Positions 30,398 to 33,596 of a stretch of DNA of 33,596 nucleotides are shown here, in pieces. Position 1 is the first letter of the stretch. Each line of letters begins with the position of its first letter. The DNA is from an uncultured bacterium (GTDB lineage Bacteria > Vulcanimicrobiota > Vulcanimicrobiia > Vulcanimicrobiales > Vulcanimicrobiaceae): contig CAIKPM010000015.1 in NCBI GenBank assembly GCA_903829325.1, positions 1-33,596 on the forward strand. The letters run 5' to 3'. Position numbers and translations under genes: made by a program. The notes under the pieces were generated by a model. It searched no databases, was not told where the DNA came from, and saw nothing but the letters and a program-made list of their open reading frames with translations.

Positions 30398-30523
30398 TGG
30401 GCCTAGGGTTCTATGCTGTGAATAACTATATTTGACTCGCTCTGTTTACGTAATTTTCTCTCATCTCTCGATTCGTCGTTTTTGACCTTTTCTAAAATTT
30501 CTCGTTAATTCTGGGCCTAGGGT
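30398..30523 (+). repeat. 12-bp direct repeat pair upstream of the large repeat protein
   Basis: TGGGCCTAGGGT occurs at 30398-30409 and exactly again at 30512-30523. Both copies are followed within a few bases by an ATG: the first by a two-codon ORF (ATG CTG TGA), the second by the start of the 749-residue protein. AGGG of the second copy is well placed as its ribosome binding site. The 184-base gap also separates divergent phrB. Confidence 0.8.
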
Positions 30524-30528
30524 ACGCT

Positions 30529-32778
30529 ATGTCATTTCCAATCGGTATGGTGCCTAATTCGTTCGCTTCGAATATCCCGGGGGTGCCTGGTGAAAACCAG
30601 ATATTTCCTAACGAGTCAGGAGCGGTGCTCCCTCCAGCGTTTGATGGGGCGTACGAGCCAATCGGCCAGCTTGGGCTCAATCCACAGTCGACTGTGATGT
30701 ATGGCATGCCCCAGAGCGAAGCATCCGCTTGGCCGTCGACCACACCGGGTTGGCCCTTAGACGCTTCCTTGGGTGACCCACTCGCGCAGCAGCCTTCGAG
30801 TGAAGAAGAGTTGATGCGGGTGATGGGTGGCATGCAGCCACAGTCTGGCCAGTACGAGGCGCCGGGCATGAATCAATACCAAGATCCCACTTGGAATCCG
30901 CTGTTTGCATCGGCGCAGTCAGCGAATGGGGTGCCATTCCCCGGCGTGCCGGTTACGGCAAATCAGAATAATGCTACGCAGAATACTACGGCCGGAAATA
31001 TTGCTGGTTGGGGTAATCAAACGAGTGGCAGTAATGACACTGGCAGTGGTTCAGGGATTCAAACCATGGGGAATTCAAATACGTCCTATGGCAACAGCCT
31101 GACTATTACCGGAAACAATAATCAGACAGCGGGCAATAACGACACGGTGTCGGGCAATGCGAATACCATCAGTGGTTCAGCCAATCGTGTGAGTGGCAGT
31201 AGTAATTCCGTTTCGAATAACAACGATGTGGTGGTTGGTTCGAATGATACTGTTACCGGACAGGGTGATCAAGTGTACGCCAATGGCCTGACTGTTTCTG
31301 CCAGTAATGTTGCTGTGTTTACCGACGCGAGCGGTGACGTATATACGGTAGCTGCGGATGGCTCATGGACCGAGACGACAAGTGGTGGTGCCTCAGTTGC
31401 CAGCGGTGGGGCAAATACTGCTAAAGCCGATGGGATTCTGACCGGCTTGGCGATTGCCGCAAATCAGGCTTCAAAGGGCGGCCAGATGTGGTCGGGAACT
31501 GGATTCGGAGTAACGCCGAATGCAGGTAATTCTGCAACCGTGAATGCCGCAAACAGCGTAGAGGGGAGCATGAATAGTGTTGTGGGGAGCCAGAATACTG
31601 TTTCTGGCAACGCGAATACTGTTTCTGGTAGCTTTAACAGTGTTACGGGGAGTGCGGATTCTGTATTTGGTCAGATGAATACTGTGGCTGCGAGTGGCGA
31701 TACGGTATATGGGTCAAGTCTGACCGTTCACATTTCTAGTGCGACAGTATTTGGTGATAATCATGGCAATGCATATGTCATGGATAATACTTCTAGTCAA
31801 TGGGTGCTTGTAAGTCATAATGGTGCAGGAAGTCAAATCGCATCGGGCACGAGTGCGACCGCCTCAATGGCTTCCTTGCTTGCATATGACTCAGCATCTG
31901 CGCATGTTGGAGGAGCAAGTCAACAAACAGTTAGCCAATTTGCGTCAGTTGCTGGAGGTCCGGCACCTGCTGCTGGCAGCACTGCCGGCAATGTCTATTG
32001 GGAGTATAACAACGGCACTCCCTTTGTTTTGCTCCAGGCGGCCTCTGGATCAGGAACGATTAATATTGATGCTGCTGGAGATGTTACCTGTGAAAATGGC
32101 TCGAGCACTTTATCATCTGGGGAAAATATCTCAAGCTTCTTGCAACAGGTCAGTACCGGCTCTGCCACAAGCTCGACAATTTCTGCAGAGGTTACTCTCC
32201 TGGCCTCACAAACTGGCTACACTTCTTCGGCGGTAAGCCAGCTTTTAGCAACCGCGTATCTTATGAAAGAGAATGGTGCCAATACGCCGACTGTTTCCCA
32301 GGTGCAAAGCGCTGCAAGTGATTTTAATGCCAACGCCGATGCACTAGCTCGTGCTGCTGTTAATGGTACGGTTTCAAATGATCAATTGAATGATTTTAAT
32401 GGGCTTGATTCGCTTATTACAAGCAGTAATGACGGGCAAGTGACTGCGACTGTCAACCAAAGAGGAGCGGCTGTTGATATTTTTGGTAATGGCGTACGGC
32501 AAAATATTGATGGTGCAGATTTTAATTATGGCACTGGCTATGGTGACAGTTGGCACGTTCAGGGTGGTGCGACGGGAGATACCAGTCGGATAAATACCGA
32601 GCTGACTTGGTTGCAGAGTAATGGTTTGACATCTGATCAGGCTCGTCAGACTCTGGCAGCTGATTATATCTATCAAAATCAAGGGGCTTCGGTCAGTGAT
32701 ATCTCGTCAACGTATGGTATCTCAAGTGCTGAGGTTATCGATCTAATGCAGCAAATGAATATTACCCCAGCTTCGTAA
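30529..32778 (+). CDS. Large heptad-repeat, beta-helix-like protein of unknown function
   Basis: 749 residues with no signal peptide or membrane helix. Residues 1-150 are Pro/Gln/Gly-rich. Residues 181-250 are ten uninterrupted seven-residue repeats (consensus G-N/S-x-N/D-T/S-V-S/T, for example GNANTIS GSANRVS) and 339-401 are nine more. Each block is followed by a similar module: GLTVSASNVAVFTDASGDVY and SLTVHISSATVFGDNHGNAY. The C-terminus (about 535 to 749) is helical and also repeats itself. The short-repeat pattern recalls YadA-type heads, beta-rolls and ice-binding solenoids, but no anchor domain is present. The whole is Asn/Ser/Thr-rich with few Lys and no Cys in the repeats. How it would be exported is unknown. 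The start is ATG 30529. Confidence 0.85.
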   Translation: MSFPIGMVPNSFASNIPGVPGENQIFPNESGAVLPPAFDGAYEPIGQLGLNPQSTVMYGMPQSEASAWPSTTPGWPLDASLGDPLAQQPSSEEELMRVMGGMQPQSGQYEAPGMNQYQDPTWNPLFASAQSANGVPFPGVPVTANQNNATQNTTAGNIAGWGNQTSGSNDTGSGSGIQTMGNSNTSYGNSLTITGNNNQTAGNNDTVSGNANTISGSANRVSGSSNSVSNNNDVVVGSNDTVTGQGDQVYANGLTVSASNVAVFTDASGDVYTVAADGSWTETTSGGASVASGGANTAKADGILTGLAIAANQASKGGQMWSGTGFGVTPNAGNSATVNAANSVEGSMNSVVGSQNTVSGNANTVSGSFNSVTGSADSVFGQMNTVAASGDTVYGSSLTVHISSATVFGDNHGNAYVMDNTSSQWVLVSHNGAGSQIASGTSATASMASLLAYDSASAHVGGASQQTVSQFASVAGGPAPAAGSTAGNVYWEYNNGTPFVLLQAASGSGTINIDAAGDVTCENGSSTLSSGENISSFLQQVSTGSATSSTISAEVTLLASQTGYTSSAVSQLLATAYLMKENGANTPTVSQVQSAASDFNANADALARAAVNGTVSNDQLNDFNGLDSLITSSNDGQVTATVNQRGAAVDIFGNGVRQNIDGADFNYGTGYGDSWHVQGGATGDTSRINTELTWLQSNGLTSDQARQTLAADYIYQNQGASVSDISSTYGISSAEVIDLMQQMNITPAS
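31069..31278 (+). repeat. Heptad repeat block 1 (10 x 21 bp)
   Basis: Ten successive 21-base units encode residues 181-250 of the 749-residue protein. The phase is exact throughout. At the DNA level the units have diverged, so this is an old protein repeat rather than a recent slippage array. Confidence 0.85.
31543..31731 (+). repeat. Heptad repeat block 2 (9 x 21 bp)
   Basis: Nine 21-base units encode residues 339-401 of the same protein in the same phase (for example GSQNTVS GNANTVS GSFNSVT). Here the DNA is more alike between units (AATACTGTTTCTGG appears twice in succession), suggesting more recent duplication than in block 1. Confidence 0.8.
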
Positions 32779-32791
32779 GTGTGCGTATGCG

Positions 32792-33596
32792 TTATTGCTT
32801 TGCTGGAAAAAGGTAAACATCAAACCTATCGCACGCCCATGTACGGACCGGGCCGATGAGTCCCTCATTGCATCCGCTTGAAGCTTGCAAGGAAGCAAGC
32901 TTTATCGTTGACCGGAGGAATGTGTCGACGTCCTTAGCTGATAAGATCAGTGGAAAGGGTCCACTTCTGTCTTGATCGCTCTGCGCACTCAGTGGCTGAT
33001 CGAGTTGCTTTTGAAGAAGGATGATGACGGGGCGATGCTTCGTTGCCATAAGCATTTTTGCCTCGGCAAGGATTTTGCCGAGGGTCATTTGCTCATGGAT
33101 ACCTTTGTCGGTAGGTGTAAAGTATGCACCGAATCTTTGTTCTCTGAGTAAATATGTAGGATTTTGGATGTAATACGGGATTGCGTCAATGAGAAAATCG
33201 GGTTCCGCCATGATGATTGCATCGTGCAATCTTGACTGATGAGCGATCAATATGGAGAGGTTTTTCGCTTGGCTGTAGGGTGTTTGTGCATCAAGCGCGG
33301 CGTGAACGTATGCAATTCCTGTCCATATTTGCCCGCACAGCAATATGAGCGCAGAGATAAAACCTATTTTTTTTAGTAGAGATTTTTTAGATCGATTATT
33401 TTTTTCCTGATTCTGTGATATCCAAAAGAGTGTTATCATGAATGCGATCCATATGTCCTGGTGGCGATAAGACCCTGGATATACAAGAGAAAAAAAACAT
33501 GAAAATGCAAATAAAGAAGCCGTCAAAAGGATTAATAGTATTGGTGAATCTGCGAGTATGAACGTGCTGAAAATTAGTGACATTGACCCTGCGATG
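32792..33596 (-). CDS. Membrane protein, C-terminal part, GT-C-like (5' partial at window edge)
   Basis: The frame is open to the right edge; the first ATG inside is at 33583, but IAGS is encoded before it, so the protein probably starts off-window. At least three membrane helices are visible (SPILLILLTASLFAFSCFF, IWIAFMITLFWIS, IGFISALILLCGQIW), followed by a 190-residue soluble domain with MAEPDFLIDAIPYYIQNPTY and LREQRFGAYFTP. The YPGSYRHQD loop before a helix recalls GT-C glycosyltransferase-like membrane proteins; that is inference. The DNA is clearly richer in A and T than the rest of the window. It is convergent with the repeat-protein gene, 13 bases away. Confidence 0.7.
   Translation of the reverse strand, partial: IAGSMSLIFSTFILADSPILLILLTASLFAFSCFFSLVYPGSYRHQDIWIAFMITLFWISQNQEKNNRSKKSLLKKIGFISALILLCGQIWTGIAYVHAALDAQTPYSQAKNLSILIAHQSRLHDAIIMAEPDFLIDAIPYYIQNPTYLLREQRFGAYFTPTDKGIHEQMTLGKILAEAKMLMATKHRPVIILLQKQLDQPLSAQSDQDRSGPFPLILSAKDVDTFLRSTIKLASLQASSGCNEGLIGPVRTWACDRFDVYLFPAKQ

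Follow-up and report, generated by a model that had tools for sequence, protein, structure and literature searches.

The window analysed here, a stretch of 33,596 nucleotides from an uncultured Vulcanimicrobiaceae bacterium, carries close to its end an orphan open-reading frame on the forward strand (30529..32778), which begins with an ATG at 30529, stays open throughout and encodes an acidic protein of 749 amino acids (pI 4.05; 3 Lys, 7 Arg and 1 Cys). Lysine and arginine make up 1.3% of its residues, compared with 4.6-14.2% in 20 other open-reading frames of the window, and this composition resembles that of exported proteins. A photolyase gene lies upstream on the opposite strand, whilst downstream, on the opposite strand and convergent, lie a membrane protein gene and then the rml rhamnose genes. 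The membrane protein beside the rhamnose genes (538 aa; window position 32792 onward, L017:2792-4408) reads as multi-pass and, cut by the window edge, had no Pfam match. GC content drops from 0.56 to about 0.41-0.51 across the stretch with the rml genes, which the 749-aa gene abuts, and the best reading places the gene on the margin of a polysaccharide region of low GC. Its own codon usage is atypical (GC3 0.45) and agrees poorly with that of the neighbouring genes. Two direct copies of the 11-mer GGGCCTAGGGT precede the gene (30399..30409 and 30513..30523, + strand), 114 bases apart; in the second, an AGGG is spaced from the ATG as a ribosome-binding site would be, and we infer it to be a candidate for this role. 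A regulon box was rejected, as the exact copies in the 1.89 Mb assembly are these two alone, both upstream of the 749-aa gene.

The encoded protein is modular, with all coordinates on the forward strand. Residues 1-150 (30529..30978) are rich in Pro, Gln and Ser and are probably disordered. A first block of heptads (31024..31317, residues 166-263) is followed by a cap (VFTDASGDVYTV..., 31318..31428), and a second block (31522..31752, residues 332-408) by a homologous cap (VFGDNHGNAYVM..., 31753..31863). The C-terminus holds two copies of a helical module (32158..32346 and 32563..32775), the latter with mean pLDDT of 78-91 in ten-residue blocks from residue 691. Within the heptad blocks, identity at lag 7 is 0.42-0.43, whereas lags 1-6 and 8-13 give 0.02-0.17, and sharp maxima recur at lags 7, 14, 21 and 28 in each block. 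The strict motif xGxx[ND]x[VI] occurs 12 times in residues 151-430 (shuffled mean 0.96, maximum 7 in 20,000 shuffles), whilst a relaxed frame gives 14 heptads in the first block and 11 in the second, one of these with six residues. The nineteen exact repeats counted in the sequence-only reading were thus real as repeats but loose as a number, which depends on how the motif is drawn. Synonymous codons differ among the heptads in 142 of 221 same-residue comparisons, so the blocks are no recent slippage array.

That reading had also proposed an internal duplication of a repeat-plus-cap unit, and this is borne out by the alignment of unit 1 to unit 2 (local score 195, z 12.3; shuffles averaged 70.9). 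As to the homologous module it placed after each block, the last heptads and cap align between the units at z 8.4 and the post-repeat modules alone at only z 2.8. A second duplication, absent from the earlier account, pairs a helical stretch around residues 544-606 with one around 679-749 (z 6.2-7.4).

The whole protein matched a single Pfam family, PF21300 (LbR_Ice_bind, the grass-antifreeze beta-roll; 1.2e-11, 44.9 bits), and the heptad blocks alone scored 57.1 bits, both exceeding the curated cut-off of 30 bits; the matches cover residues 181-264 in the first block and 31522-31728 in the second. Because G, S, N and T abound in the heptad region, we ran composition controls, in which four full shuffles gave no match and four period-preserving scrambles gave at most 25.6 bits, so that periodic composition accounts for part of the score and residue order for at least half of it. 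Among solved chains, the protein matched only 3ULT from Lolium perenne (1.2e-6), which a profile of the two units recovered at 4.8e-13, with all other chains at 0.18 or worse. By profile, the heptads belong to the grass-antifreeze beta-roll family and are no novel repeat type. The N-terminal 150 residues, the caps and the C-terminal 220 residues matched nothing.

Structure prediction added less. The full-length model was unreliable (pLDDT 38.7), whilst the AF2 model of unit 2, which includes cap 2, consists of many short strands in a chain, its block pLDDT reaching 85 (overall mean pLDDT 65.8, pTM 0.53, from two alignment rows), and is consistent with a solenoid. Foldseek returned no significant match for either model in either library, 3ULT included. 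The proposed fold of the heptads is supported by sequence and weakly by the model; the expectation of a solenoid, raised before any search was run, gains from both the short-strand model and the PF21300 and 3ULT matches.

The family match raises the question of ice binding, in which flat Thr/Ser faces of a beta-roll adsorb to ice and stop its recrystallisation, as in ryegrass. One turn of the ryegrass protein takes 14-15 residues, and its motif is NXVXG/NXVXXG (review, PMC5744647). In block 1 the outward positions are Thr/Ser in 11 of 14 cases on one face and 5 of 14 on the other, which favours this reading, yet the faces of block 2 show no such difference (7/12 and 7/10), exact NxVxG motifs number only six, with a single NxVxxG, and a PF21300 match speaks for fold, not activity. 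The earlier guess of an ice-binding or adhesive protein is in part borne out for the fold, whilst the function it named is putative. Ice binding is possible, though not indicated beyond the fold, and we consider it unlikely.

Relatives were sought widely. The whole protein found no convincing relative in 98 genomes, nor did the C-terminus or a profile of the helical module in 149 genomes of the phylum, and scans of genome, viral, phage and plasmid collections with the whole protein, the C-terminus and the duplicated modules returned none, those of the genome and viral collections being seeded on exact short peptides and hence reaching close relatives only. Weak matches to a TonB-receptor-like frame, to an unrelated dehydrogenase region and, for the cap hairpin, to beta-propeller-like lipoproteins looked like chance. 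Within this search sensitivity no relative is detected, and the two-unit, capped, anchorless layout appears new on a repeat fold that is known. A cytoplasmic protein, or an orphan frame that is never expressed, would accord with the lack of homologues and the atypical codon usage; the long open frame, two protein-level duplications with diverged synonymous sites, and ordered, family-specific (PF21300) repeats argue against it and leave it improbable in our judgement.

Hydropathy and the upstream frame give no sign of a signal peptide or membrane segment: mean hydropathy over 19 residues peaks at 0.88, and only about 11 codons of open frame precede the ATG, leaving no room for a signal. Pfam profiles found neither an autotransporter (YadA) anchor nor an S74 tail in the protein, and the absence of signal peptide, membrane anchor and autotransporter barrel noted at the outset is upheld on all three lines. 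Observed directly are the repeats, the family match of their heptads, the two duplications and this absence of a recognised signal or anchor. Related genomes of the family do encode different repeat proteins, lipoprotein-like and of a beta-roll kind, that end in an S74-like region (L006, L008, L011, L014, L015 and L016), found at four places in one genome alone (G130). Together with the likeness of the repeats to YadA-type beta-rolls, these proteins are what would favour a trimeric autotransporter head or the relic of a phage tail fibre, but the 749-aa protein has no anchor, S74 domain, fibre family match or phage or viral relative, its whole genome has no S74 match, and such an origin is very improbable.

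Other export routes were sought in the genome. Type I secretion was unsupported, the best HlyD match scoring 54.8 bits against a cut-off of 208.65 at a locus which reads as an efflux operon; just 1 of 14 control genomes clears so strict a cut-off, which leaves room for a divergent adaptor. Contractile-injection cargo was likewise unsupported, with no match to the tail sheath family PF04984 in the genome. Three FHIPEP export-gate genes are present: one (on C56) is FlhA over its cut-off, whilst the other two reach neither the FlhA nor the HrcV cut-off and each occur with FliF-like genes. The C18 cluster (L039:14573-18724 and L040:410-8522; C18:14573-28522) has FlhB-, FliF-, FliI- and FliP-like genes beside FHIPEP, and in the C62 cluster (L041:12528-15904 and L042:502-5880) a FliF-like gene lies near FHIPEP. 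Both are divergent type III export clusters of a flagellum-like kind. In 136 of 149 phylum genomes there is a match to the C18 FliF-like protein, at about 40% identity in many genomes of the family, and some of the distant matches may be ordinary FliF. In a cultured member of the Baltobacterales, flagella were not observed and a flagellin gene is absent (PMC9758169); an open-access literature search on type III export in the phylum returned nothing relevant.

These clusters are a possible, signal-free candidate route for the 749-aa protein, which as a type III substrate would be a rod or harpin-like protein delivered to the surface, and such export would explain the missing signal peptide. The two FHIPEP genes that fall outside both cut-offs and sit with FliF-like genes are in keeping with this, as is the N-terminal composition, where 13 of 25 residues are Ser, Thr, Pro, Ile or Asn (the highest among 21 open-reading frames of the window), with no Leu and one charge. 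On the other hand, no gene linkage, chaperone or shared motif ties the protein to the clusters, and FliF-like genes of the C18 type occur in nearly all of the phylum set whereas the protein does not; we regard this route as doubtful.

Our preferred reading, to which we give a probability of about 0.5, takes the 749-aa protein to be exported and to serve a structural or adhesive role on the cell surface or in the extracellular matrix. It draws on the family match with its controls, the short-strand model of unit 2, the composition, the position beside the rml genes and the synonymous differences among heptads. In this picture two solenoids of the antifreeze beta-roll type, each ending in a small cap, would be rigid rods with a linker between them, the disordered, almost uncharged N-terminus may carry export information, and the duplicated helical C-terminus may give anchoring or assembly. 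We infer folding, export, location and role alike, and against this surface-protein reading stand the low confidence of the full-length model, the two rows behind the unit 2 model, the lack of a significant Foldseek match, the poor agreement of codon usage with neighbouring genes and the lack of homologues for a conservation test. Either ice binding or type III delivery could hold alongside it. A further-reaching version, in which paired antifreeze-type beta-rolls form a surface rod specific to the lineage and exported by a flagellum-derived type III machine which builds no flagellum, is a long shot.

Known systems resemble the protein in part. YadA-type trimeric autotransporter heads are beta-roll solenoids of short repeats, but a signal peptide, stalk and membrane anchor were not found here. 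The S74-tailed repeat proteins of related genomes come from the same family and have beta-roll-like Gly/Asn repeats, with weak PF21300 scores, but their lipoprotein-like start and S74-like chaperone end, both assigned by reading, are absent from the 749-aa protein. Export of the latter, if it occurs, would call for a signal-free route, for which the genome offers an unusual candidate. Closest is the grass ice-recrystallisation-inhibition beta-roll (PF21300, 3ULT), which shares NxVxG-type core heptads and 14 residues per two heptads; unlike the grass antifreeze, however, the protein is bacterial, almost lacks 15-residue NxVxxG turns and consists of two separated, capped units with unmatched ends. 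Finding the grass-antifreeze repeat in a bacterial protein with two capped units and no anchor bears on whether this fold is mainly a general surface solenoid or one for binding ice.
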